From positions 153,285 to 217,284 of the forward strand of contig SDOX01000014.1 in the NCBI GenBank assembly GCA_004565275.1: a stretch of DNA of 64,000 bases, given 5' to 3'. A program made the position numbers and the translations under genes. The notes under the pieces are model-generated. The model ran no database searches. It was not told where the DNA came from and worked only from the letters and a program-made list of their open reading frames with translations. Below, one piece after another: positions 4,120-64,000 of the stretch; the first letter of the stretch is position 1; the number at the start of each line of letters is the position of its first letter. The stretch comes from Nannochloropsis salina CCMP1776 (taxonomy: Eukaryota > Sar > Eustigmatophyceae > Eustigmatales > Monodopsidaceae).

Positions 4120-7100
4120 ATGATCTCTTCCATTACATGGGTAAGTCTTGACTGCATTTTTCACCTCTTGCAATTCAAGGCAATTCTCACCACCCCTCTT
4201 GTCTACCATCCTTTTGTCCTCTTTCGAAAGGTACCTCGGGGCGCCGCGAACCCCAATCCCCCTCGTTTTCAAGCGTGCAAAGAAGAAGTCGAGTGAGTGA
4301 ATGGGAGGAACAATATACGCTACGCAAAAAGAGAAAGGGAAAACACGGCAAGCAGGAATGGTGGTCAAGGGGGGAGGTTAGAGGTCGGTGTTTTTATGAT
4401 CTCCTCTATAAACAGGGCCCTACTTCGTGAGCATGGAGGTGGTGATAACGAGCTGGAAAGGCAAGATTTCGAAGAGGAGGATGGAGAAGAAGGGCAAAAT
4501 GGCGAGTTGGACCGGCATGGTTTGCCTGTTGAGCTTCATATGGACGATTACGATGACGAGGATGAAGCCGCGGGAGGGGCGCAGAAGGCCGCTTTCATCC
4601 ACGCAGACGCCAGTGAGGAGGAAGAAGGCGTCGAGAATGGGGAGGATGAGGATGATTTGGATGATGAGGAAGGGGGCATAATGGAGGAGGAAGAGGAGGA
4701 CGAGGGAGAGGAGGAAGACGAAGGGGAGGAAGAGGAGGAAGAGGAGGAAGAGAAAGAGGATGAGGAAAGTGGAAGAGGAAAGGAGGATCAGCAGAGAAAT
4801 GAGCTTGCAGGCGCCTTGCCAGAAAGTGCGTTTCTGCGGGGCATGGATGATAATGACGAGGAGGACGACGACAGCGAGGACATGGAGGACCACATGATTA
4901 AGTCGACAGACGCGGTCGTTCTGGTGGCGAATACCGAGGGTAGGGCAGCAAAGAGGGGGCGAAGGGGGGGATGAGGGAGAAGATGATATCTTAAATATGT
5001 TCTTGTGCCGAACCGAAGGAGGTACGGCGCGAGCCATGGAATAGGCGGGGCGCGATCTCGTCGAGAACGATGCCGGATAAGGCAGCGCACGCTTTGCCTC
5101 ACTTGCCTTCCCTCCCCCTCTCTCCCCGCCCCATCCTCCTTGCCTTCCCCTCTTTCCTGGACGACAAGACGAGGAGCACTCGGCCCTGGAGGTCCACGTC
5201 TACGAGGAGGACACGGGCTCACTCTACATCCACCACGATATCTCCCTCCCCGCCTTCCCCCTCTGTGTAGCCTGGGGCCACTGCCCGCCCGAGCCGGGAC
5301 GGGAGGTAAGGAAGGGCGAGGGGTGAGGTGCAACGAGGTGAAATAAAGGATGTCAGCCATGACAGGATTCGTGAGCTCTTTTATCAATCTTTCCTCCCCA
5401 CACCGCATGACGACTTTTGGTGCCCCACAGAGCGAGCGCGGCTCCTTTGCGGCCGTGGGAACATTCAAACCGGGGATTGAGATATGGGACGTGGACATCA
5501 TCGATCCGCTTGAGCCAGTCCGCATACTGGGCGGTGAAAAGGCGCTGCAGGGGTACGGGTGGAGGGGTCGAGAGGGAGGGAGGGAGAAAGGCGGGGAGGG
5601 AGAGGGTCGTGCTACCTTGCCCCTAACCCTAACATTGGTCTGTGGTCTCCTTCCCATTTCTCTTCCTGCCTATCCTCTCCAGCACCACCTCTTCTTGGAG
5701 CAAAGCCGGCAAGAAGGGCGGGAAGAAAAAGAAGAAACGGCGCCAAAATGAAGACGAACTCGTGGAGGGCAGTCATGAGGGCCCCGTCATGACGCTCGCT
5801 TGGAACCAATTCCACAGACAGGTCCCTCCCCCCCTCCCTCCCTCCCTCCTTCCCTCCCATCCTCGTGCCCCGATTCCTGATGTCGTCGTCGGGCGAACTC
5901 GCCTTGCGCACCCTCCCCTACCCCCCTTCTTCTGTCGCACGACATTGCCTAAGGAAAATTGAGTACCAGCGGGACACCCCACGCTTTTCCCCTGCCCTTC
6001 CTCCCTTCCTCTTTCCCTTCCTTGCCCTTCAGGTCCTGGCCTCCGGCTCGGCCGACAGTACTGTAAAGCTCTGGGACGTGACGACGGGCGAGTGCTCCGC
6101 CACGCTCGCGCACCACACCGACAAGGTTTCCTCTCTGAGCTGGCACCCTGTGGAAGGTAGGGTCCCCTCCCCCCCATCTGTCCTGGCTATCGCACGCGCC
6201 GCGCCCAAACCTATTCGCTGCCACCCTCCCACTGTCGTATCCTTCCCTCCTTTCTCCCTGCTTCCGCCAGGCACTGTCCTCGCCTCCGCCGGCTTTGATC
6301 GGGGCATCTACGTCCTGGACGCGCGGGGCGGGAGCGCGAGCAGCCACGTTCAAATGCAGGGGGCGGGAGGGAAGGTAGGGAACGAGGGCGGAGGAGGCCT
6401 CCCCCAAACAAACATGCCTCCAGGCATATTCCTCGCTTCCAAGTCTCATTTCTCCTCTCCTGGGCTACAGGCTGACCCCGAGTGCGTGGGCTGGTGTCCC
6501 CACGCTCCCTCCACCCTCCTGTGTACCACCGAAGACGGCAGCCTGGTCGCCTGGGACGTCAGGTAGGGTGCTAGCCTGTGTACCCAAGGCGTCAGCTTCT
6601 CTGCGAGGTTTCCTTCCTCTCGGGCTGTTTTGTTTTTGTTGTGGTTTGGGAACGAGGACGGCAAAGCGGGGGGGGAGGCAAGCTGCCTCCAGTATCTGAT
6701 TCTTTCCTCGATCGCATTTCTCGCAGGGCTCCCTCGGCCCCCCTGTGGAAAGCCAAGGTACACACAAAGACTTGCTCCTCCTTCTCTTTCTCCGCCCTCG
6801 CCCCGGGCCTGATGGCCACGTGCGGCATGGACAAGACGGTCAAGCTCTGGGTGAGTAGGTGCCCGGTCTCTTCCTCCTTGCTCCGGTGTTCTGGGGCCAG
6901 CCCACCTCTTGCCGTCCCTCTCCTCTCCTTCCCGTCTCTTCCAATGCCTCTCTCTCTGACGGTTGAACCACCCCATTTCCGTAGGATTATTCGGGCGATC
7001 CCGGCGTCCCCCCGCGACAGCTGGGAGAGAAAGCGATGTCCGTCGGAAAACTCTTCTCCATCTCCTTCTATCCCAGGTGGGTACATTGCGGCCGGCGCTT

Positions 7101-40728: not shown

Positions 40729-41740
40729 ACTGCCCGGATAAAGAGAGACCGAGGGGGACAAAAGGTCTGTAGTAATAAGGAAATGGAGTGATATAGCTTT
40801 GAGTTTGACTAAGAGAATGGAAAGCCGTACTTTTGGATATTCATGCTTTGACACATATAGACACGCTCATGCAATGAGAATACTCCATAATGCCCTCTCA
40901 TTTGTGTACTGTATATAATTTACGACGTAAGAGATCATGATATCGGTGGTCTTGAAAGTCAGATAAGCGATAGAAATATTAATTAGAAAACGATCACAGT
41001 TTGAGGTTACTCGTCACTTGATTTTTAGTGCTTGAATTAAAAAAATCTTAGTATGGTGGAACGCGCGCATGCAACGATGCCTTCAACTACTAGTAGTCGG
41101 AGCACACGCTTTGCTTGGGAAGCTCGGCGGCTCCAATGCATTTCTACCTCAAGTTGTTCGGCTGATGCGTACAATCTCGATGACCTAGAATGTCGGAGAG
41201 AGGCCCCTATAAAGAGTAAAGGCATGCTGGGATAAAACGAAGAAATAAAATCGAGGAGAGAGGCGGACGCAAGACAAGCTTCTCGCGAGTCCTTGGCGAG
41301 AGGACTGAATATGCCCTTCCTAGATACCGGATATGTGCATGTCCGCGGTCTGCGTGGTTTCTTCTTGCGCGTTGCAAGTTGGGAGGTATTTTCTCCCTCT
41401 TTCGTGTCTGGGGTTTCCTTTGTGTCGTCAACTGCCAGCAACACAGAGCGTCGCGGACGTGTGGTGATGATGGATAACTCGTTCCAGAGGAGTGCACGTC
41501 GACGTTGCTTTATTTTTTAATGCCTTGGCTACTTCTACTATGTGGCGTTCATCGCCCCATCTCTGAAAATTCTATTTTAACCTTGCCATTTTCTGAGTAT
41601 ATAGATGATCTTTTCTTTGATTTTGGGTCTGTAGCTCTCATACATGAGATGGTGCGGGAAATACCTGTAATGCGTGTCTATGCGTACCTAATACTTGAGT
41701 TAAGGGCGGCATTGATGCTGCGTCGCAAACTACATGAAAT
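40729..41740. other. Intergenic, no gene seen
   Basis: About 1 kb between PEBP and the large intronless gene. Upstream in-frame sequence could hold an extra 5' exon of the latter, but no convincing splice signal was found. Confidence 0.5.
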
Positions 41741-44700
41741 ATGCAGCAGTACAGATTGATACTGCTTTCTGGACGAACACTTATTGCCATGATTCGTATG
41801 CTTACGCGGCAGGCCATGGAGGGCATTCTCCCCCTTGCCAATGAGGACCGTCGGGCCGTTGATAGTGGCGCCGGCACTGCTGGAATTCGACTAGCAGGAA
41901 GGGAAGCTCACAGTGACGGCCAGTGTGACAACGTTTCTGTCCATCAGCCTCCCCATGCCCTCCTCCATCTCCAGCACCTCCACCATTCCAGCCACCCCAA
42001 CCTCCTTATGCACCAGTCCCGCCTTCTCGGCGACGAAGGAGCGGAGGAGGGGCTGGACGTGAGTTGCATGGTCGTGATGGACCCTCCGGACGGATGCCGA
42101 GAGGATGGGGCTAACCAGGCAGGAGGCGGCGGTGCGGGAAGGCATGCGGGCATGTACACGCAGGAACCCAACCATCACGACGACATGGAGGGCCCGGTCG
42201 AAGACGATGCCCACCTGGCGATGCTCCTCTTGGCGCCCTTGGAGGACGAACAGGAGCGCGAGCCGGATGGTCATACACGAGACCAGCACCAATTAATGCA
42301 TCCTCCCTCTTCGTTCCAGGCGCCCGTGGGGCTGTCCCCGCCATGCCCGCCCTTCCTCTCGCCCCCAGGACACACTTCGCACTTCGTCTTCCACGCTAGT
42401 TCGCGTGGGCTGACCGCGGGAGGGGTCGTAGCGATCGGGGAAATGGATCACGAGACCAGTAGAGCGCAAGGGGAGGGGGGAGAAGACGCGGCGCCGGTGG
42501 AGTGGTCGGGGAGGCTGGGGAAGAGCGAAGACCCTCCAGCCTCCGGGGTTTCGGCCCCCCTGACGGAGTGGTCTTACAGCCCTCCCATGGCATCTCGTGC
42601 TAAGTTTACAGCACGTCCTCCAACACAGATATTTGCGCCGGGCCTGCGCGATGAGGGAGTGAGCGTGGCTCCCCTGCCGGCGGTCCCGCCGCTGCAGGAT
42701 AGGGTCCTCGGTCTCAGGGCAGGTTCAAGCCAGCGCGAGGACGGACAGGCGGGCCCGTCGCCCAGGGAGGAGGCAGCGGGTGAAAAAGAAAGGAAAGGAG
42801 CGGGGAGAGAGGGAGGGGCGAAGGCGGTAAAGCAGGGCTGGAGCTCACGCTCGCATGCTACCCTGAAGGGGGTGAGCTCAGAGAGAGAAGGGGAGTCCGA
42901 CGTGGCTCCTCGTCTGGTCCGGGGAGCCGAGCCGGCGAGAGTGGAAGGTGGTCTGGGGAGTGCAGAGTGTGGCGGGCGGGGGCCTGAGTCGATAGATCTT
43001 GCCCCGGCGGGAAGGGGGAGGAGGACGCCACCCGGTGGAGAAGACGAGGGGGCTGCCAAAACGGGCCCGACCGATGGAGGCGGGGCACTTGTGTCGGAAA
43101 GCCTCGGTTCCTCCCCCCCTTCTTCCCCTCCCTCCTCTGGCACCTCCCCCGATCCCTCCCCAAGGCCGCCCAGGCACACCCCGTCCACCCGCAAGGCCTA
43201 CGCACGGAGGCGACAGCTGGTCGCGCCCAATTTCTTCACATGGCAAGAGCAGTCGGACAAGAACTTTTACAAGGACGCCGTTTACGTGTTCTACAAGAAG
43301 GTGTTGCCTTTCGCCGAGCGCCTCCGGTCCACTGGCCGACGGGCGGGCGAGTGGCTGGCGCTCCTTAAGGAGGCAAACCCCGACGTGGAGGAGGGGCAGT
43401 ACGCGCTCTTGGAGGGGATGTGGGACTTCTACATGGACAAGTTCTTCGTTCCATTGGGAGGGGAAGAGGGAGAAAAAACCGGTCGGGCAAAGACCGCGAA
43501 GGAGCGGAGGAAGGAGAGAGGCGAGGGGGCGGAGAAGGCGTCGCGTACAGATCAGGCGCTGGCCTCCACGTCCCCCGCCTTGGAGGAGCTTGCCCGGGGC
43601 CCCACCCCGTGGGCACCGAGCAGTCGGGAGATGAACAGCTCTTCCTCGGTTTCTCAGACTGGGAAGGATCCGCCGACCGTTGCCGAAGACCCAGCTCTGT
43701 CCGGAGACAGGGCTCTCGGAGGGATGGGGGTGGAGGTTGGGGAGATGATTTTCGAGGGGGAAGAGGCTGGAAGAGGGGGACCGAGGGGCGGTGCGCGGGA
43801 AAAAGAGGAAAAGGACAGACTCTATGCGATCAAAATCTGCTCGAGCCGCAACAACGACAGCCTGGCCCTTCGCATCTTTCGCGAGGCGACTTGGTCCAAT
43901 GGCATGCTCCAGCTCTTCCTCCACCTCTGCTACAGGTACTTGGAGGAGGACGCGGAGAGGGGGGGAGGGAGGCTGGCGGTGCGTCGGGAGGACTACGTGG
44001 CCCGGCCCCAGGCAGAGGAGGTCTACGCAGCGAGGGAGGAGCACTACATGCGCAAGTTCATCAAAGGGTGTCTGAGGGACGGAGTCTTCGCGGGCGACCC
44101 GGAGGGGAAGGCGGCCGGGGGGCGGGGGGCAAGAGAGAAAGGAGACGTGGGAGCTGTGGTGTGGGAGGATGCGGGCCAGGGCGAAGAGGACGGGGGAGAG
44201 AGCGAGACGTGGAGACAGCAGTGCGAGGAGATGGTGGCGCGAGGCGTCTTGATCAAGACTCGGGTGCCAGGCTGGGAGATGTCCGTCAAGTCGGAAGGGG
44301 AACTTGATGGAGGAGAGGCCGGTAAGGTCGAGAATCTGGACCGCGCTCCTCCAACCACGCCCCCCCTGGAAAGCCCCGGCTTCTGCCACGGCTCCTTCCC
44401 GTCGCAAGGATCTCCCGCAGAGACACCTCTCGGGGTGGGAGACTGGCGTTTAGCGCGAAAGATGGAGAGGTCATCTGCCTCCCCCTTCTCAGCCCACGCG
44501 ACACGCCAGCCTTCCTCCATGTCTCGTCTCCCTTGCGCTCGCCCTCCCTGTACTTCCTTGAAACGAATGAGCTGCACCCGCTACAGCCTGCATCTTCCGA
44601 GCACGCTCAAAGATATAGACTTCTGGGATTTCTCGCACCCCTGCCTGTCTCTTCTCCTCCGATACATCGATCGACTCGGTCCCCCTATCCCTGAGACCTC

Positions 44701-46078
44701 TGTCTTCTCAGGAGAGCCTTCTCCTTCCCCTGCTTCTCCTTCTCCCGGGGCTTTGTCCTCCCCTCCTCTCTCCCACCCCCGGCGCCTTTTCAACTCTGCC
44801 CTCAGCCTTTATACGGCTCTTGTCATGGAGAAACACGCCAAGGACGCTGAGCTGAAGCCGGAGCACTCGCGCCGGGGTCGCTTCGACCGTCTCTTGTCCC
44901 ACCGGTCGGACTTCTCCCTCGCTTGCGCCCAGGCCATCGCCGCCTCTCCCTCCGCCCTTCAAACCCGGCAACGGATTCTGGTGCCTGAGAAGGCTGGGAA
45001 GACCCCTCGGGAGCAGCAGAGCCAGCAACGGTGTAATTGTGACCCCCAGGGGGGGGAGGCCGTGACAGGGGATAGGGGGGTGGGCGCATGGTCGGCAGCC
45101 AAGGTCGGGGGAGAAGCGGGAAGCTGGAGGCATGGAGCCGCAGCCGCTGGTCGGGTCACGGACCCAGAGAAGACCGCGTCACAGCGCAATAGAGACAGGC
45201 CAGAGGCAGGGGGCCAGGGGGAGGCGAGGGAGGGAGCGGCGAGCGTGGAGGACGGCATGAGGTTCCTGCCCGTCGCGGTGACGCAGGAGGGAGGCAAGTC
45301 GCGCCAAGCAAGGCACAAGGGGACCCTGAGAGGGAAGACTGAGCTGTTCATCGTGGATAAAAGCTGCTCCGGCCCTTTTGCCTCCCTGCCCAAGCCCTCC
45401 CATGGGAGTGCGGGCATCGCCTGTGACCCCGAGGGGGGGGCGGAGGGCGCAGCTGAGGCGACCGACAGCCAGGAGACCCGGGCAGACGAGTCAATTATCA
45501 CACATGACATCCTAATCAATGAAGACAAGACTAGAAAAGATGGCAGCAGCACAGGTAGCTGCGGCAGTATCGGGGCAGTGACGCAAGGCAATGGCGGCAA
45601 GGGCAAGCGCGCAAGGACATTGTCCAAGGCCAAGAGAAAAAAAAAGGAGCCTGGAGCAAACAAGGGAATTGTATGGCGTGCGCTGCTTGATCCAAATCTG
45701 TCGCTATTGCCCGCCGTCGCCGTCCCTTTCCTCTCGCCCCTTCAAATTCGCGGCTCCCAGCATACCCGGGATGCCAGTGAGCTCCCTCAACTCGTCAGCG
45801 GGCCTCCCTCAAGAAGTACTGAAATGGACTATGCCACAGACAGAGTCCTTGACACTCATGGATTTTCAATACCAGAGCATACGCATACCGTGGAGGCCTC
45901 CCTGGAACAGGAGCAGCGTCAGTGTACAAGGAGAAAATTGGCGAATGAAGAAGGGGACAAGAAGGTGCTGAGCATGAGCTTTCAAACCGATTCGAATCAG
46001 GACAAACGCATCGATGTGGTCAGCGCTCAAAACGACAAAGCTCTGAATAAGACTGTTAGCATCATATTTGCTGTATGA
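41741..46078 (+). CDS. Large intronless protein, 1445 residues (unrecognised)
   Basis: Uninterrupted frame of 4338 bases in a region where nearly every other gene is split. Most of it is predicted to be disordered (Gly/Glu/Ser/Pro-rich), but ordered islands stand out. A first lies near residues 490-570: NFFTWQEQSDKNFYKDAVYV, FYKKVLPFAERLRS, WLALLKEANPDVEEGQYALL and MWDFYMDKFFVPLG. A second, near 690-780, reads IFREATWSNGMLQLFLHLCY and HYMRKFIKGCLRDGVF. A third, near 950-1070, reads LHLPSTLKDIDFWDFSHP, then LLLRYIDRLG and ALSLYTALVMEKHAKDAELK. A Lys/Arg cluster (KRARTLSKAKRKKKEP) near 1300 could be a nuclear localisation signal. The aromatic-rich islands argue for a real protein against the GC-rich antisense frames. 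The start is the first ATG of the frame and could be too early. No function proposed. Confidence 0.7.
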   Translation: MQQYRLILLSGRTLIAMIRMLTRQAMEGILPLANEDRRAVDSGAGTAGIRLAGREAHSDGQCDNVSVHQPPHALLHLQHLHHSSHPNLLMHQSRLLGDEGAEEGLDVSCMVVMDPPDGCREDGANQAGGGGAGRHAGMYTQEPNHHDDMEGPVEDDAHLAMLLLAPLEDEQEREPDGHTRDQHQLMHPPSSFQAPVGLSPPCPPFLSPPGHTSHFVFHASSRGLTAGGVVAIGEMDHETSRAQGEGGEDAAPVEWSGRLGKSEDPPASGVSAPLTEWSYSPPMASRAKFTARPPTQIFAPGLRDEGVSVAPLPAVPPLQDRVLGLRAGSSQREDGQAGPSPREEAAGEKERKGAGREGGAKAVKQGWSSRSHATLKGVSSEREGESDVAPRLVRGAEPARVEGGLGSAECGGRGPESIDLAPAGRGRRTPPGGEDEGAAKTGPTDGGGALVSESLGSSPPSSPPSSGTSPDPSPRPPRHTPSTRKAYARRRQLVAPNFFTWQEQSDKNFYKDAVYVFYKKVLPFAERLRSTGRRAGEWLALLKEANPDVEEGQYALLEGMWDFYMDKFFVPLGGEEGEKTGRAKTAKERRKERGEGAEKASRTDQALASTSPALEELARGPTPWAPSSREMNSSSSVSQTGKDPPTVAEDPALSGDRALGGMGVEVGEMIFEGEEAGRGGPRGGAREKEEKDRLYAIKICSSRNNDSLALRIFREATWSNGMLQLFLHLCYRYLEEDAERGGGRLAVRREDYVARPQAEEVYAAREEHYMRKFIKGCLRDGVFAGDPEGKAAGGRGAREKGDVGAVVWEDAGQGEEDGGESETWRQQCEEMVARGVLIKTRVPGWEMSVKSEGELDGGEAGKVENLDRAPPTTPPLESPGFCHGSFPSQGSPAETPLGVGDWRLARKMERSSASPFSAHATRQPSSMSRLPCARPPCTSLKRMSCTRYSLHLPSTLKDIDFWDFSHPCLSLLLRYIDRLGPPIPETSVFSGEPSPSPASPSPGALSSPPLSHPRRLFNSALSLYTALVMEKHAKDAELKPEHSRRGRFDRLLSHRSDFSLACAQAIAASPSALQTRQRILVPEKAGKTPREQQSQQRCNCDPQGGEAVTGDRGVGAWSAAKVGGEAGSWRHGAAAAGRVTDPEKTASQRNRDRPEAGGQGEAREGAASVEDGMRFLPVAVTQEGGKSRQARHKGTLRGKTELFIVDKSCSGPFASLPKPSHGSAGIACDPEGGAEGAAEATDSQETRADESIITHDILINEDKTRKDGSSTGSCGSIGAVTQGNGGKGKRARTLSKAKRKKKEPGANKGIVWRALLDPNLSLLPAVAVPFLSPLQIRGSQHTRDASELPQLVSGPPSRSTEMDYATDRVLDTHGFSIPEHTHTVEASLEQEQRQCTRRKLANEEGDKKVLSMSFQTDSNQDKRIDVVSAQNDKALNKTVSIIFAV

Positions 46079-54032: not shown

Positions 54033-57000
54033 TACTGATGCTGCCTCTGCTAGGTAGGATCATAATCTACTATCTATACCCATGATTAAGGTTGAGAATA
54101 CCTCTCAAGCACTACAAAGCTACCCAGTGTTAATGTGGGGATTAGTTTCGGTGGATTGAGTGACATCGATAGCAAAAGTCCACCCAACGTACTGGGGTAG
54201 GCACAAAAATAAAATTAAGATGTTTCCTAATCATATTGTTGTGCTTGGCGCAATGCTACAGGCTACAGTAATGATAAGGATATGGTAAGAATTTAAAAGA
54301 TAAAAATACATGTAGCGGCACACGTTATGGTGAATGTGAGGATAAATGCAAGCTTGGGATAACGGTGTAGGCTAAGGGTGTACGTGAGCCGCATTTTATA
54401 AGAATGTTGGGCCGCTTTTCATAAGGTGATAGCCTGCGTGCGGATGGACATGTTCATGAGTGTTAGGATGACGGTACGTATAAAGATGAAAGGACAGAGG
54501 CGTTGGGTAAGCGGTATTGAGTGTGAGAGGGGACGTGAAATTGGGTATGATTGCGATCATTCAAGCACAGAAGATGTGCACGTGCAGAAGATGCATAGTG
54601 GGGTGTCAAGGTGCAGAAGTGAGGATATAAACATTGATGGACGAAACTGATCGGTCCTCCCTGTCGATAACACATCCCACTAGACTATCGAGACAAATAA
54701 CCCCAAGGAGAGTTGGACCAGTTGATCTTAAGCTTTAGTGACCGTGAAAACCCGAGCCAGCGCTGCGAGACAGGAGACCATTGAGCAAGTGACGGAAGAT
54801 GAAGACCTCATCACCACCGCGATCAATGTCGGAAGGCTCTCGGCGCCGATTTTGGGATTTTATATCCGTTTCGTGTCTATCTTCAGTTCTCCTGGTAGTG
54901 CTCTCTACAAACGGTGCAACATCCTCATACTTTAATATTCATAGAGAATCCTGTACAGTCAAATGAATAATAAACACTGTAAGCCTCCAGCTCTTAACTT
55001 GTTGCAAGTAAGGTTTGTGAGTGAATTGCGAGGAAATTTGCTCTCCTCGATCCATATTGTGGAAGACGAACTTCCACCACTACATATGCCAGCTTTCACT
55101 GTTGCTTGTTAAATAGACTTTAAAAGCGTTTGAAATATATTTTCGGGTCTGTTTCTCGCACGGCATGATTCAATGACTTGCGTGTTGAAATACACATCGT
55201 GTTAATATCTCGCGTCCTATTTCTCAGCTCCCGATTTCTTTTCGCGTTGCCGACAGGAAAATGATCTGATCTATATGAGTGCTTTCATGCATCTGCAGCT
55301 TCGCGCAAGTCTTGGACGATAAAACCAATGGACCAGAACCCCTGTACCAAGCCTGAGCGGAGTCCTCACGCATTTTACAATACGACCGCCTTACACGCTC
55401 TGAGAAGGGATCGCGCAGAAGCATTTTAATCGTCCTTCAATCAATTCTGATATGATGGCATCTACGTTGGTATTGGTAATATATGTCTGCATGAGTATGC
55501 TGTGAGTTTTTCCACAGACCACACTTTGCTGGTGTCGAACTGGATAGAACATAATTTCTCAGCTCTGGAGATCGATGGCAGTAGAACTTTCAAAAGCACC
55601 TACTCAATGCCGAATGCGAGCCTATCTTACGAAATTGATGACTATACTGTGTGGGAGGACTGAAAATTTTACTTTGTACAGCCTCCGTACCACTAGAAAC
55701 TCTTTGGTCTTCAGAGTCTATCCAAACGTTAGCTTAAAGACCGATCCCTTTTCGAGGGTTTCATTGTGGATTGCAGGAATCGTTTACAATGGAGCAGGTC
55801 ATCTGTCCAGCTTTTCATGGATGGAACTACTCCTGCAGGTCAGTGGTTTTGCGAAAAGGCAGAAGATATAATCGATGAGTTGCCTCATCACCTGAAATCG
55901 GCAGAGATGTCTAATAAATTGATGTTCTCTGGTGAATCTATTGCGCTCTACGTCATGTTACCTCTATATTTATAGGCTACTGCGTCCTGTGCGGGTATGA
56001 ATCTAGGCCATGACGCAAGGGGCACGACGCCACTGTCCTCAATGGTGGTCCCATCTTGTATGCATGTATGGTCAATGCTCGCCATGCGATGCTCGATCTG
56101 ATACATACTGGTCGACTCCCCATCCCATCATGCGCAGAACCTTGCCGCCGTGATGAATGGAAGCTCCATCTGGACCTTCGGATAGGTGTGTGCATGTGTC
56201 TCGGGGAGAGTTAGGGAACCAAGTACTTTCACACCTCTCCCCGTCTAGCCCTAGTCTTGCTGAAAGGTCAGATAAGTAAGATTATCGAATCGTTCTTAAA
56301 CCTCCAGGCGGCGTCCAACTCTGGCAAAGGACGCTCTACATCATGTCACTTCTATATTTATAGGTTACTGCGTCCTGTGCTCCCGCTTTCATCGTCGATT
56401 AGCGTTAGGGTCAGAATTAAAGAACCAACTACTTTCACATCTCTCAAAAAAAGAATTGAAGAATTGAGAGAATACCATCAGATTCAAAGGAACTTTGAAT
56501 GAAGAAGCAAGGAATTTTCATGGACGAGGATCAAAGAGTAGGACCTTTCAAGCACTTTTCAGGGAAAGGTGGTACTACGGACAAATTATTTGGGGACACT
56601 TCCTCTGTAGCAAGATGAAGGGAGTGGGCCCTTCTATGCTTTAGAAAGAGAGACTACTATTATTATCACACTATACGGGGAATCTGGCTCAGCAATAAAT
56701 GCGATGCGCTTCTTGTCTGCTTTGAGGAGATAGACTGATGTAATGGTCGAAGTCTTCTGGGATTCTAAATGTTATGGGCAAATCGAAAGCATATTTACCG
56801 TTTTTCCTTTATGAGTATGAAAAGTTGATTTTTTCAAGAAGCTTTGAATGAGGACGGTTTTCTACAGGGGATGCCATTGCCTTTTTCCAAAGATAGTAAC
56901 ATGCGAAGATACGTGCTGGACTTCTTCCTTAATCATGTTCTGAAATGGCCTTTCAACAAAGTATTGAGGTAATTGAGTAGTTAGATATCAAGTTGGCCTG

Positions 57001-57970: not shown

Positions 57971-59499
57971 CTCTCGTGTGCGGAAGGGCCGACCTCTTAG
58001 TCAAACATCTCTCTTCCTTTTCCCTCGCTCCGCATCTCCCACTCGCCTGACCCTTAGCCTTTGTGTAACTTGCACCTTCTCAGTCTCTACCGTTTCCCTC
58101 GCCACCAACAATCCAGAGATCAACCTGGCCCAAGCAATCGGTCCTCCGTCCCGCCCTCCCCTTCCCCTTCGCATTCGTTTGGTCCAGCACTCCGACAACA
58201 ACGGCGCTCGGCGGTGCCTCTAGCCAAGGAGAAGGCGGACGCGCGTCGTCGCCGTCAGGACAGCCGGCTCCGCAACCTCCTGTGGTACTGGACGGAACAT
58301 CCAAGCCGCCTTCTTTCCCGCCTTAATGGGCACCTTGCAGGAGATTTGCTCCCTCTTTGATGCCAGAGTGAGAAATTGTGCGAGCGATATGTAGCCTGCC
58401 CTACACTACTCTTGACAGAATCGGCATTGCAGGGATAATACGGTTAGGCTATCTCTGTTCTTTCAACGTACAACACAGACATGTTAATTTGCACAGCTTT
58501 GGGAGATCAAATTTCTCATCGAAGCCAAGCTTAAGCGTTCAAGACTTTGATTCAGAGGATAGGGCTGCAGCGATCCATATCTAGGACGAGCTAGGGTATA
58601 GCTGTAAGGGATTTTGTCGTCGGATGCAGGTGACTTGTATTCCTAGCGTGTGACTCTTCAGAAAAATTATTATTCCAACACCGTTTGCCCTATCATCCGA
58701 AAGCAGTGCCATGTGGAAATAATCGTCCTGTATCTAACCAATCATAGAAGTCGCTAAAAACTCACGTTTCGAAGATGTCGAAAAATACAGTACAAACATA
58801 GCCTTAACAAAATTAATGAGAAACTGAGGGAAACGGACTTATGGACATCTACTTTGCATCCGTATGGTGCAGTCTTCCTATATGCGTCGGCTTTGAGCGG
58901 GAACTATATGTAAGCGTATATTTCGGGTAAGTGAAGGAGACAAAATAAATGGTGCCGTAGCACTTCATCCTCCGTAAGTTGTTGACGAGCCTTTCTATAC
59001 CCTGGACATGGGACTTACGACATAACAGGCATAGTCGTGAAGATGTCTATCTAGTTCTCAAATTCAGAGCTGACCTCGTGATGCAAGTGGCGATCACCTC
59101 AACGCGAGTGCCGGGTGCAACTTATGTGTGGGCTCAAATTGCGAATCGCGAGAAGTGATAGGATTCTTTTTTGCCTCACAAGAGAAATTGATAGTTTTGT
59201 CCATTAACATGCAAATTGTTGTCCAGCATCAGTAAGAAGTGATCGGCCTCTTATAGGCCTTTTGAAAAATATCTGATATAGTTGACCGCATCACTGTCTA
59301 AAGGCAAATTGCGCGTGCTTCAGTCTTCCTTCCGAGCGATCAGCGTGATGTGCTCGGACATAAAATGATGCAATGCTCGATGATGTTTTCTTAAGGTTCT
59401 TCTCAAGATTTCCAAGTTCCCTGCAAAGAAGATATGATGACGAAGCTTCGGAATTCCTTGCGTAGAAGATATTCCTACGAGCCTCAAAGGAGTAGTCAG
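57971..59499. other. No firm gene
   Basis: About 1.5 kb. 58080-58360 has GC-rich, Pro/Arg-rich frames that may be 3' exons of the ankyrin relic (for example NNPEINLAQAIGPPSRPP), but frames disagree. From 58600 the DNA is AT-rich with nothing supported. Confidence 0.5.
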
Positions 59500-59825
59500 T
59501 GAAAATTGCTGGAAATAGAGCAAAAGTAGCTTGACGCTCACACAAGCTCACACGACCCCTAAAGAGAGAACGAGACTTGTGCTCATACAGAGACCTGGCC
59601 CCATCAACACGGGCTTGGTGACGAGATTTCTACACTCGTGGATGATCTGTACTTTGCAGGTACGCCTGTCCAGCTTCGTTTGTATGGCACATGTTACTGA
59701 TTTACAGGGAGCCTACAATTTGGTGAGAGATTTTCCCCCTTTATTTATCTCATTCTATAATTCTATAAGTTTTGAGATATGTTGCAATATATTATGGAGG
59801 AACTGAAAACAAGGAGCTTTCCAGC
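59500..59825. repeat. Duplicated segment, copy A
   Basis: Matches 60220-60545 at an offset of 720 bases. The right two-thirds (59630-59825) is nearly identical; the left part carries scattered substitutions. Both copies keep a 91-codon open frame without a usable ATG start, and both contain a splice-like unit TTTGCAG/GTACG...TTTG/GTGAGA. Confidence 0.85.
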
Positions 59826-60000
59826 TTGTAAGTATAGACACAGAGGCTGATTTTGAAATGACGGCGATAATTGCAAATTAGAATGGTTTTCTGGAAAAGT
59901 CACAAGTCAAATTTGTAGCATTTATTTCAGGATCCCAATCATATCAACATATTGTATTTTTGATGATTAATTATGTTTGGGGACCTACATGAGGCCCCAC

Positions 60001-60059
60001 TGGTAAAAAGGGGGGCTGCAAAGCATTCGATGTGAGTTCCACGTGTTTATTTTTAAACA
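60001..60059. repeat. Short duplicated segment, copy A
   Basis: About 59 bases (from TGGTAAAAAG to TTTTTAAAC) recur at 60581-60639 with only one or two differences. This second copy lies just after duplicated copy B, so the region has been rearranged, not simply duplicated once. Confidence 0.8.
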
Positions 60060-60219
60060 TAGTATCGGAGATTATACAATAATGATTCAAAGTATTTACA
60101 AAATAATCATCTGACTTATGCATGTTAGCGCTGTTGGTCCATCGTTTTCTTTGAATACTTGACGTGTGATCTCTGTCGCTCTCTTGTTGTTCACGCCATC
60201 ACCAACATGATTCTTACCA

Positions 60220-60545
60220 AGTGAAACTTGCTGGAAATAGAGCATAAGTTGTGACGTGCACACAAGCTCACCTGACCCCTAAAGAGAGAACGAGAATTAT
60301 GCTCATACGGAGAACTATTCCCATCAATACAGCACTGATGACGAGATTTCTACACTCGTGGATGATCTGTACTTTGCAGGTACGCCTGTCCAGCTTCGTT
60401 TGTATGGCACATGTTACCGATTTACAGGGAGCCTACAATTTGGTGAGAGATTTTCCCCCTTTATTTATCTCATTCTATAATTCTATAAGTTTTGAGATAT
60501 GTTGCAATATATTATGGAGGAACTGAAAACAAGGAGCTTTCCAGC
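60220..60545. repeat. Duplicated segment, copy B
   Basis: Partner of 59500-59825. The 91-codon frame is kept intact in both copies. Confidence 0.85.
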
Positions 60546-60580
60546 CTGTTGGGATAATTAGACAGAGGCTGAGGCTCCCT

Positions 60581-60639: not shown

Positions 60640-60797
60640 GTCGCTTTCCACCGGACGCTTTAAACCACGGCTTCTGATCGAAAAGTAAAACCGCTGTTAA
60701 GATGCTCCCTGGCACTTGGGCATGCTTCTCAATTACTTCTTTTTGCAACTTTCCATACCCGCAAACATCTGTGCACTTCTTATGTCTTCTTTTCTCG

Positions 60798-60955
60798 CTT
60801 GCTTGCCACATTGTCTGCTGAGGTCAACCCACGAAATCGTAGCAGTAGCACCTTGGTTCGGAATGAGGTCCTGGCCTGAATCTCGTGGACGTCAAGAAAC
60901 AAGCAATTCAGACATTCTTTAAATGCTTTTGTCTGTCATCTATCAGACCTAGAAA
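60798..60955. repeat. Diverged duplicate pair, left copy
   Basis: From GCTTGCCACATTGTCTG onwards this resembles 61152-61320. Shared blocks are GCACCTTGGTT, TGGCCTGAATC, GTGGACGT, CAGACATTCTT and TCATCTATCAGACCTA, separated by substitutions and small indels. No gene seen. Confidence 0.7.
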
Positions 60956-61151
60956 ATTCTAAAAATTATTTGAGGATTCTCAATTATGCACCTACATGGT
61001 AATGGATTCTCCTTGATTTTCATGTGATTAGCTGTCACTTTAAATTGGGTTTTTGTTGTGAAACGACCATATGGCACGTGCCTATCCTTCGAAGGATGGG
61101 AGCTTCCCTTGTGGGGAAATGTCTCTGTACTGCTGCTGCATTAGTTTCTCA

Positions 61152-61320
61152 CTTGCTTGCCACATTGTCTGTTGAGGTCTGCCCACGAGGTTGTATCAAC
61201 AGCACCTTGGTTTTGTGGCACGTGAAAGAGATCTTGGCCTGAATCCCGTGGACGTAAACGGAGCTAAGGGATACAGACATTCTTGACATGGTTTAGTCAT
61301 CTATCAGACCTACAAAGTCT
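61152..61320. repeat. Diverged duplicate pair, right copy
   Basis: Partner of 60798-60955, immediately upstream of the secreted repeat-protein gene. Confidence 0.7.
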
Positions 61321-61451: not shown

Positions 61452-64000
61452 ATGAAACATTTCTCTTGCCTTTTCCTCTTCGCTCTCCTGGGCTTTGGAA
61501 GCATTCTCACCACCATCTCTCAAGAGTGTCCGCAGCTTTCTCTGACGGCTAATGTGAGGCCAAATCCTCGGCGTGGGATCGTAGCGGGCAAGGGAATGGC
61601 TAGGATCACCGTCACGCTGAGGAGCAAAGATCCCGTGGACAACGTGGAGTTTCAGTTGAGCCTGCCGGACGGGCTATCGGTCGAGCAAACAGCAATGCGT
61701 CCGTCCTCGAAGCCCTATACACCGCCGCAAATTGTTGAGGATGCGGATGGAGTGACAGCTATTTCCTGGCAGGGTCTCGCTTTCACCAAACGCAAGGGGG
61801 GCAAACGCCGCTTTCGTGTCAAGGTGAAGGCCGACCAGTGTGCCCCTGAGACGCTCGTGGTGAACGCTCTCGCTTACCTAATGAATGCTACAGACATCTC
61901 GTGCAGAACGCCGCTGGCCAACCCCGCCATCATAAAAGTGCGATACTTGAAACGCAACAAAGACGCGACGTGCGCGCCCACTCCAGCTCCTACTGTCAAT
62001 CCCACGCAACCTTTTGTGCTCCTTGGTGAGGGCCTGCGGTTCTCTCAAGGGGAGCGACTGGCCCCCTTCGAGGACCGTCGTCTTTCGCAACATACTGGAA
62101 TCGGTAGGTATGAAGGCATCGTCGCCCGCTACCATCCTAAAGATCGACTGCTGCAATCGATCAACACCCCTGAGGCATGCTATGAATACTGCTCGTCAAA
62201 CGGGGGCGAGGAAGTACCATTCCTCTTCAGCTGGAATACCGTGACGAGCCAGTGCTTCTGCTGCGCCGGGGTGTGCACACCCCTCATCGTCGATCCTGAT
62301 TACAACGTGTACGAAGCGATCTTACCCAGAACGCTTCCTCCGACCTCCATCCCTACTGCTACAGCGCCTCCAACGGCTTCCCCAACACTGACACCTACAG
62401 CATCGCCTACTCCAGGACCGACTCGTACCCCTACCCAAGCACCTTCAACGACTCCAACGGCTCTCCCAACGCCGAGACCTACAGCATCGCCTACTCCAGG
62501 ACCGACTCGTACCCCTACCCAAGCACCCTCAACGACTTCAACGGCTCTCCCAACGCCGACACCTACAGCATCGCCTACTCCAGGACCGACTCGTACCCCT
62601 ACCCAAGCACCCTCAACGACTTCAACGGCTCTCCCAACGCCGACACCTACAGCATCGCCTACTCCAGGACCGACTTGTACCCCTACCCAAGCACCTTCAA
62701 CGACTCCAACGGCTCTCCCAACGCAGACACCTACAGCATCGCCTTCTCCAGGACCGACTCGTACCCCTACCCAAGCACCTTCAACGACTCCAACGGCTCC
62801 CCCAACGCCGACACCTACAGCATCGCCTACTCCAGCACCCACTCATACCCCTACCCAAGCACCTTCTTGGGCTATGAGCTTCGGAGGAACCAGTACTGAC
62901 GAGGGAAGAGGCATTGCTGTGGATGCATCAGGCAGCTCCTACACTACCGGTTATTTCCGAGGGAACATGACAGTAGGCAGCACCACCCTCACGTCTGCTG
63001 GTGATTCTGACATTTTCATCATCAGCCTGGACTCCAGCGGCAGTCCTGTCTGGGCTATGAGCTTCGGAGGAACCAGTGGTGACATTGGATATGCCATTGC
63101 TGTGGATGCATTAGGCAGCTCCTACACTACCGGTAGATTCCAAGGGAACATGACAGTAGGCAGCACCACCCTCACGTCTGCTGGTGACTCTGACATTTTC
63201 ATCATCAAGCTGGACTCCAGCGGCAGTCCTGTCTGGGCTATGAGCTTCGGAGGAACCAGTGGTGACATTGGATATGCCATTGCTGTGGATGCATCAGGCA
63301 GCTCCTACACTACCGGTGAATTCCAAGGGAGCATGACAGTAGGCAGCACCACCCTCACGTCTGCTGGTGGCGCTGACATATACATCATCAAGCTGGACTC
63401 CAGCGGCAGTCCTGTCTGGGCTATGAGCTTCGGAGGAACCGATTTTGACATTGGAAATGCCATTGCTGTGGATGCATCAGGCAGCTCCTACACTACCGGT
63501 AGATTCCAAGGGAGCATGACAGTAGGCAGCACCACCCTAACGTCTGCTGGTGCCGCTGACATTTTCATCATCAACCTGGACTCCAGCGGCAGTCCTGTCT
63601 GGGCTATGAGCTTCGGAGGAACCAAAGATGACATTGGAAATGCCATTGCTGTGGATGCATCAGGCAGCTCCTACACTACCGGTTATTTCCAAGGGAACAT
63701 GACAGTAGGCAGCACCACCCTAACGTCTGCTGGTGCCGCTGACATTTTCATCATCAACCTGGACTCCAGCGGCAGTCCTGTCTGGGCTATGAGCTTCGGA
63801 GGAACCAGTGGTGACTTTGGATTTGCCATTGCTGTGGATGCATCAGGCAGCTCCTACACTACCGGTTATTTCCAAAAGAGCATGACAGTAGGCAGCACCA
63901 CCCTCACGTCTGCTGGTGGCGCTGACATATTCATCATCAACCTGGACTCCAGCGGCAGTCCTGTCTGGGCTACGAGCGTCGGAGGAACAGATAATGACAT
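61452..64000 (+). CDS. Secreted SBBP-type beta-propeller repeat protein (partial, runs off window)
   Basis: Open, intronless frame from ATG 61452 to the window edge (849 codons seen, no stop). The signal peptide is MKHFSCLFLFALLGFGSILT. Residues about 25-165 form a beta-type domain (TVTLRSKDPVDNVEFQLSLP) similar in style to extracellular repeat-type domains. Residues about 242-278 are Cys-rich (EACYEYCSS, SQCFCCAGVC), suggesting a PAN/WSC-like carbohydrate- or protein-binding module. Residues about 293-472 are a Pro/Thr/Ala/Ser linker, probably O-glycosylated. From Trp473 a 61-residue unit repeats: WAMSFGGTSGDIGYAIAVDA, SGSSYTTGYFQGNMTVGSTT and LTSAGDSDIFIINLDSSGSP. This fits the SBBP repeat (Pfam PF06739 type) of extracellular beta-propellers. 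Six full units and the start of a seventh are present. Likely a cell-surface or wall adhesin-like protein; binding partner unknown. Confidence 0.85.
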   Translation, partial: MKHFSCLFLFALLGFGSILTTISQECPQLSLTANVRPNPRRGIVAGKGMARITVTLRSKDPVDNVEFQLSLPDGLSVEQTAMRPSSKPYTPPQIVEDADGVTAISWQGLAFTKRKGGKRRFRVKVKADQCAPETLVVNALAYLMNATDISCRTPLANPAIIKVRYLKRNKDATCAPTPAPTVNPTQPFVLLGEGLRFSQGERLAPFEDRRLSQHTGIGRYEGIVARYHPKDRLLQSINTPEACYEYCSSNGGEEVPFLFSWNTVTSQCFCCAGVCTPLIVDPDYNVYEAILPRTLPPTSIPTATAPPTASPTLTPTASPTPGPTRTPTQAPSTTPTALPTPRPTASPTPGPTRTPTQAPSTTSTALPTPTPTASPTPGPTRTPTQAPSTTSTALPTPTPTASPTPGPTCTPTQAPSTTPTALPTQTPTASPSPGPTRTPTQAPSTTPTAPPTPTPTASPTPAPTHTPTQAPSWAMSFGGTSTDEGRGIAVDASGSSYTTGYFRGNMTVGSTTLTSAGDSDIFIISLDSSGSPVWAMSFGGTSGDIGYAIAVDALGSSYTTGRFQGNMTVGSTTLTSAGDSDIFIIKLDSSGSPVWAMSFGGTSGDIGYAIAVDASGSSYTTGEFQGSMTVGSTTLTSAGGADIYIIKLDSSGSPVWAMSFGGTDFDIGNAIAVDASGSSYTTGRFQGSMTVGSTTLTSAGAADIFIINLDSSGSPVWAMSFGGTKDDIGNAIAVDASGSSYTTGYFQGNMTVGSTTLTSAGAADIFIINLDSSGSPVWAMSFGGTSGDFGFAIAVDASGSSYTTGYFQKSMTVGSTTLTSAGGADIFIINLDSSGSPVWATSVGGTDND
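62387..62860 (+). repeat. 84-base coding minisatellite (Pro/Thr linker)
   Basis: The block GGACCGACT(C/T)GTACCCCTACC recurs every 84 bases (62415, 62499, 62583, 62667, 62751 and a variant near 62835), encoding a 28-residue unit with PTPGPTRTPTQAPSTT. Units differ by few bases. The frame is kept throughout. Confidence 0.95.
62868..64000 (+). repeat. 183-base tandem coding repeats (SBBP-like units)
   Basis: The unit starts TGGGCTATGAGC(T)TCGGAGG at 62868, 63051, 63234, 63417, 63600, 63783 and 63966, exactly 183 bases apart each time. Differences cluster in two spots per unit: the codons after GGT/ACC (about position 25-40) and after ACTACCGGT. No indels among the seven starts. The array continues past the window. 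Confidence 0.97.

Follow-up and report, generated by a model that had tools for sequence, protein, structure and literature searches.

Within the window (the whole stretch of DNA analysed, 64 kb in length), an ATG at 61452 on the plus strand opens a reading frame of 849 amino acids that is still open at the window end (64000). Because the gene runs past this edge, its C-terminus and any further units lie outside what was read. All of its features are on the plus strand. The frame begins with a putative signal peptide of 24 amino acids (61452-61523), with a basic start and a hydrophobic core, whose cleavage site was placed by eye on the translation; it is this signal-peptide-like start, read by eye, that makes the protein probably secreted. 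The N-terminal region that follows (61524-61987) was beta-rich in a low-confidence structure model, which had been built without relatives, reached a pLDDT of 43 and was discarded, and profile searches with the N-terminal parts 61452-61970 and 61971-62366 gave no match above a Pfam cut-off. Next come a Cys-rich module, with six cysteines at residues 243-275 (62178-62276; translation and family search), and an in-frame Pro/Thr minisatellite with an 84-base period and 5.9 copies, found by TRF, which forms a linker (62368-62866). The initial annotation had described this arrangement as adhesin-like, a label behind which we found nothing specific. The rest of the frame is made up of SBBP units of 61 amino acids. 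Unit 1 (62868-63050) was defined by Pfam and unit alignment, and unit alignment also delimits units 2 (63051-63233), 3 (63234-63416), 4 (63417-63599), 5 (63600-63782) and 6 (63783-63965), together with the first 35 bases of unit 7 (63966-64000), which is cut by the window end.

Several other signals were set aside. A reverse-strand ORF of 180 amino acids over the Pro/Thr linker was taken as a by-product of the repeat, and Pfam matches to PqqD, DUF5122, Cupredoxin_1 and CoV_E all fell below their own cut-offs and were ignored, as were PHROG matches, of which the N-terminal region had a single weak one (E 0.0019) and the propeller eleven. In the search of solved proteins, circumsporozoite and other non-CylK chains matched the low-complexity Pro/Thr linker and were therefore read as composition.

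The genomic setting is eukaryotic, as had been proposed: near 5.8-7.1 kb, a WD40/THOC3-like coding region lies in pieces in different frames, bordered by GT and AG as judged by eye within 5780-6800. Across the 64 kb, ARAGORN with the bacterial code reported no tRNA and no Rfam family was found. Elsewhere in the window, a 1446-codon open frame in a G+C-rich stretch (41738-46075) has no Pfam match at E 0.01, and a 49-base direct repeat, 92% identical, occupies 55944-55992 and 56332-56380. Just upstream of the propeller gene lie direct duplications without a recognised gene (59498-60551 and 60763-61316), with a 300-base block repeated at 93% with a spacing of 720 bases and diverged blocks at a spacing of 354-365 bases; the locus seems prone to duplication.

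A homogeneous array of SBBP blades

From 62868 onwards, a new unit begins every 183 bases exactly, seven times in all, so that six units are complete and the seventh is present with 35 bases. TRF also detects the array (period 183, 6.1 copies, 93% matches, score 1878). The full units share 89.1-95.6% DNA identity in pairwise comparisons, with a mean pS of 0.036 across the six, which is lower than the array-wide pS of all 96 other arrays compared among the matches listed (lowest value 0.184). Both the exact 183-base spacing and the recent amplification or homogenisation with little synonymous drift that had been noted from the sequence are therefore borne out: given that the units are near-identical at synonymous sites, either a single blade has recently been multiplied or some process keeps the array uniform. 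Furthermore, the four-gamete test fails for 19 of the 36 pairs of informative sites in the window units. The units are therefore mosaics, of the kind that gene conversion or unequal exchange would produce; repeated changes at a given site could contribute to these failures.

A profile search confirmed the proposed membership of the SBBP family, with PF06739 matching five stretches (E = 6.5e-14) at 52 bits, above its gathering cut-off of 20.5. The LipL53 family (NF047494) also matched, at E 3.4e-36, but its 124.9 bits against a curated cut-off of 400 leave the array outside that family. By sequence, the closest solved protein is CylK (E = 1.1e-36). We modelled the six units plus 11 residues with AlphaFold2, using an alignment with 53 bacterial rows; these derive from 78 seven-unit ORFs, of which 54 passed spacing and strand filters and one, a plasmid-collection row, was then dropped. 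The resulting model of the window units has a pLDDT of 97.2 and a pTM of 0.94. When it was submitted to Foldseek, five CylK entries ranked first (TM over the query 0.79-0.85, rmsd 2.8-4.3), the best being 7fh6 (TM 0.85 over the query, rmsd 2.8), and non-CylK rows reached a TM of at most 0.52 among the best 50 of 534. In line with what the initial annotation had anticipated, the predicted fold is thus propeller-like.

In view are six blades and the start of a seventh, and the curvature of the model fits the seven-bladed CylK, but the model was itself built with seven-unit relatives. Among the matches listed, 78 of the 99 related ORFs (loci L001-L087) have exactly seven units, with fourteen in four ORFs, eighteen in one and other numbers in 16; loci L008-L087 are the best 80 of at least 556 confirmed relatives, and since these were ranked against a query of just over six units, shorter arrays are under-sampled. 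On the strength of the seven-unit majority among the matches listed, the window propeller probably forms one ring of seven blades, completed a short way beyond the window edge. If it is a single closed propeller, its unit number may be held at seven rather than free to vary between strains in the way that the initial annotation had thought likely.

Searches of viral contigs returned no close relatives of the propeller or of the N-terminal region. A degenerate alignment finds SBBP-like repeats in 75 viral-contig loci (L088-L162), at 25-36% best-segment identity, and three phage records also encode such repeats at low identity, which places the scaffold in phage-type records as well.

Positions at which the units differ

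Among the six full units, 14 of the 61 residues vary, and these fall into clusters at codons 9-15, 29-33 and 46-47, with codons 21, 50 and 53 in addition. The initial annotation had seen variable loops on a constant scaffold, with the differences in two short stretches. Variation is indeed limited to few positions, whereas the two stretches are really three clusters together with codons 21, 50 and 53. The truncated seventh unit has further differences, at codons 3 and 5 and, without a residue change, at codon 8; all selection tests were run on the six full units, with this one left out. At unit position 53, where Lys is at least 90% conserved at unit 1 of the bacterial rows, window units 1-6 carry Ser, Lys, Lys, Asn, Asn and Asn, respectively.

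To avoid a post hoc choice of positions, we ranked unit positions by their residue variability within related arrays, with the window excluded. The ranking drew on 97 arrays among the matches listed, nearly all of them bacterial, with those of at least three units counting, and covered every unit position except 61. The eight highest-ranked positions were 9, 10, 12, 14, 29, 31, 46 and 47, each of which is variable in the window (hypergeometric p = 1e-6). When all positions are taken together, those with more states in the window array also tend to have higher entropy in related units (Spearman 0.41, p = 9e-4). In unit 1, these hypervariable codons lie in codons 9-14 (9, 10, 12 and 14; 62892-62909), codons 29-31 (29 and 31; 62952-62960) and codons 46-47 (63003-63008), and each group recurs every 183 bases. 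The eight-residue combinations differ among all six window units.

DSSP assignments on the model (unit 2) place strand A at 12-18, strand B at 24-30, a hairpin at 33-36 and 39-42, strand C at 47-54 and strand D at 60-61 plus residues 1-5 of the next unit; in the other units these ends are displaced by one or two residues. On this assignment, positions 9 and 10 lie in the D-A loop, 12 and 14 at the start of strand A and 29 and 31 at the end of strand B, and 46 and 47, at the end of the B-C loop, lead into strand C. The turns at the opposite end of the blade (19-23 and 55-59) hold one of the 14 variable positions, position 21. Placed by these strand ends and by published propeller topology rather than by coordinates, the eight positions appear to sit on the top face of the ring. 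The B-C hairpin also carries an N-glycosylation sequon, Asn-Met-Thr, at unit positions 33-35 (first copy 62964-62972), which is present in units 1, 2 and 5 and missing from units 3, 4 and 6 owing to a single Asn/Ser change.

Counted by distinct states, the base changes among the six units comprise 32 replacement and 3 synonymous changes. The per-site comparison of replacement and synonymous change that the initial annotation had proposed reveals an excess at the eight positions: replacements there number 1.25 per site, compared with 0.069 synonymous changes per site over the unit. In raw counts this is 24 replacement changes at the eight positions against 3 synonymous changes in the whole unit (binomial p = 4e-10); the evidence comes from one haplotype and six units, with small counts, and exchange between units may break the independence of changes on which the test relies, so that this and the following p-values serve as guides. 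Taking the top 10, 12 or 15 positions instead gives p = 8e-9, 8e-8 and 7e-7, respectively, and with the most divergent unit (unit 1) left out the counts fall to 16 and 2 (p = 5e-7). Expressed differently, pN in the window is 0.457 at the eight positions and 0.026 elsewhere, slightly below the pS of 0.036. In addition, 20,000 random scatters never produced a clustering over codons as strong as that of the observed changes. For the whole unit, a random scatter of the 35 changes leads one to expect 9.3 synonymous changes, and three or fewer arose in 0.9% of 3000 runs (P = 0.009), a modest result when taken alone. The Pro/Thr linker, which has no such surface, provides an internal comparison: over its five complete units pN (0.058) exceeds pS (0.037), and part of the excess could thus be general to the gene.

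We then asked the same of related arrays of four or more units among the matches listed, with positions chosen by leaving out one locus at a time. Of the 12 arrays with pS < 0.45, ten have dN8/dS > 1, an excess weaker than that of the window, and two (L072 and L026) lack it. At pS < 0.60, dN8/dS exceeds 1 in 25 of 30 arrays among the matches listed, with a median of 1.86 over finite ratios, and the remaining five show no excess. Before correction for saturation, pN8 > pS held in 53 of the 97 arrays among the matches listed, the window included. One related array includes four unit pairs with pS < 0.1 that are alike at all eight positions. As a separate observation, the bacterial arrays L013, L028 and L010 contain adjoining units that are up to 87-88% DNA-identical and vary at the same eight positions.

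Interpretation and rival explanations

We consider it rather likely that the gene encodes a probably secreted protein with a C-terminal SBBP propeller, the top face of which has been shaped by diversifying selection for binding. In such a protein, exchange between units would homogenise the scaffold, and selection would keep or create the differences on the top face, presumably for the sake of ligand binding. The Pro/Thr linker may display the ring away from the cell or wall, and candidate ligands include a marker of self or non-self and a glycan or protein on a microbial surface. Both the binder role and ongoing selection are what we infer from the pattern of change.

The same pattern might arise without positive selection, if an SBBP blade was recently amplified in the ordinary way and constraint was relaxed at its exposed loops. 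New propellers often arise by amplification of a single blade, as the available text of PMC9218822 describes, the positions concerned are the most variable ones in related arrays, and the linker too has pN > pS. Relaxed constraint predicts, however, that replacements accumulate at the synonymous rate, in conflict with the 1.25 against 0.069 changes per site at the eight positions, and we regard this explanation as unlikely. Alternatively, a single episode of positive selection after amplification may have shaped one asymmetric binding site for an unchanging ligand, in which case neither an arms race nor polymorphism would persist. This is a sub-case of the diversifying-selection reading, with which its odds overlap, and it seems to us possible, if somewhat short of probable: a single haplotype cannot separate it from ongoing diversification and the six units display six different eight-residue combinations, whereas the mosaic sharing of states (19 of 36 four-gamete failures) suggests continuing exchange.

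That the ring is a catalytic propeller like that of CylK, and not a binder, would fit with CylK being its closest solved relative and with the CylK active site, which lies at the interface of the propeller top face with the N-terminal domain (PMC8916777, in its accessible part). However, the best stretch of each CylK match lies inside the propeller, a CylK-like N-terminal domain was not reported, and catalytic residues are expected to be conserved, not hypervariable, which makes catalysis highly improbable. We give equally little credence to an assembly artefact in the number or sequence of the units. Near-identical tandem repeats are hard to assemble, but the differences seen here keep the frame and fall on the positions predicted from related arrays (p = 1e-6), unlike random errors; this argues for the sequence, with the unit number itself unproven.

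With diversifying selection on the top face as the preferred reading, a broader and more tentative proposal is that SBBP propellers are a recognition scaffold common to bacteria and at least one eukaryote, with blades repeatedly homogenised and eight top-face positions diversified. The window gene would then be a secreted eukaryotic self or non-self recognition molecule, an independently evolved extracellular counterpart of the fungal HET propellers. If this were true, it would point to an unrecognised recognition family, with the same eight positions also diversified in bacteria, and population sequencing or binding studies could be aimed directly at the eight named positions. Two things appear to be new within the literature searched: that SBBP blades diversify at specific positions, and that a probably secreted example exists in a eukaryote. 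This literature covers few subscription journals, and we found in it neither an SBBP in a eukaryote nor position-specific selection in SBBP.

Comparison with known systems

The nearest relatives are the bacterial and archaeal SBBP propellers (PF06739), including Leptospira LipL53-like proteins (NF047494) and T9SS-secreted proteins of Bacteroidota. They resemble the window array in blade sequence (best segment up to 53% identity) and, among the matches listed, in the same eight variable positions and probably in their usual seven units; a T9SS sorting domain scored above its cut-off in three of six relatives scanned. The window gene differs from them in being eukaryotic, with a Pro/Thr linker and an N-terminus that matches no Pfam family above cut-off.

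CylK, which a published structure shows to be a propeller of seven blades, is alike in sequence and in fold. According to the accessible part of PMC8916777, its blade-connecting and inner loops lie on the top face and calcium sites lie between its blades, with the blade-connecting loops binding the calcium; Asp 11, in the corresponding CylK-like loop, is kept in all window units and is a candidate calcium ligand by analogy. CylK itself is an enzyme with an N-terminal calcium-binding domain, and it aligns to the window model at 26-27% identity. No such domain fused to the propeller was found here: the CylK matches lie in the propeller, and the N-terminal region has no Pfam family above cut-off.

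LRRs are one scaffold on which diversified repeat receptors are built. Others, in fungi, are WD40, ANK and TPR scaffolds, as described in the available portion of PMC4986451. Recently amplified propellers are known in many lineages, and WRAP and others among them share with the window array single-blade amplification and few synonymous changes (Pereira and Lupas 2022, PMC9218822, available text); the term SBBP is absent from the main text of that survey.

The closest parallel in mode of evolution is the HET-D/HET-E family of Podospora nwd NLRs. Like the window array, it has near-identical blades, concerted evolution and paired positions in the D-A and B-C loops at which replacements are in excess, and the positively selected WD40 codons, 7 and 9 (D-A loop) and 25 and 27 (B-C turn), lie on the top face (Paoletti and others, PMC1805685, accessible part). 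Concerted evolution with diversification of Podospora WD40 repeats is also reported in the accessible parts of PMC2873952 and PMC4986451, the latter giving WD40 units of 42-43 residues. HET-D/HET-E belong to the WD40 lineage and are NACHT receptors with a shown role in allorecognition, whereas the window protein is probably secreted and is built of 61-residue SBBP blades, with no WD40 or NACHT match in the scanned part of the gene (its C-terminus lies outside the window), and is thus not a member of that family. The same mode of work is nonetheless seen, in one haplotype and with the face assigned from strand ends, in that top-face codons carry a replacement excess within homogenised repeats. 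In the window, the pairs 12/14 and 29/31 each flank a residue that is invariant among its units, a striking parallel to HET-D/HET-E in another lineage.
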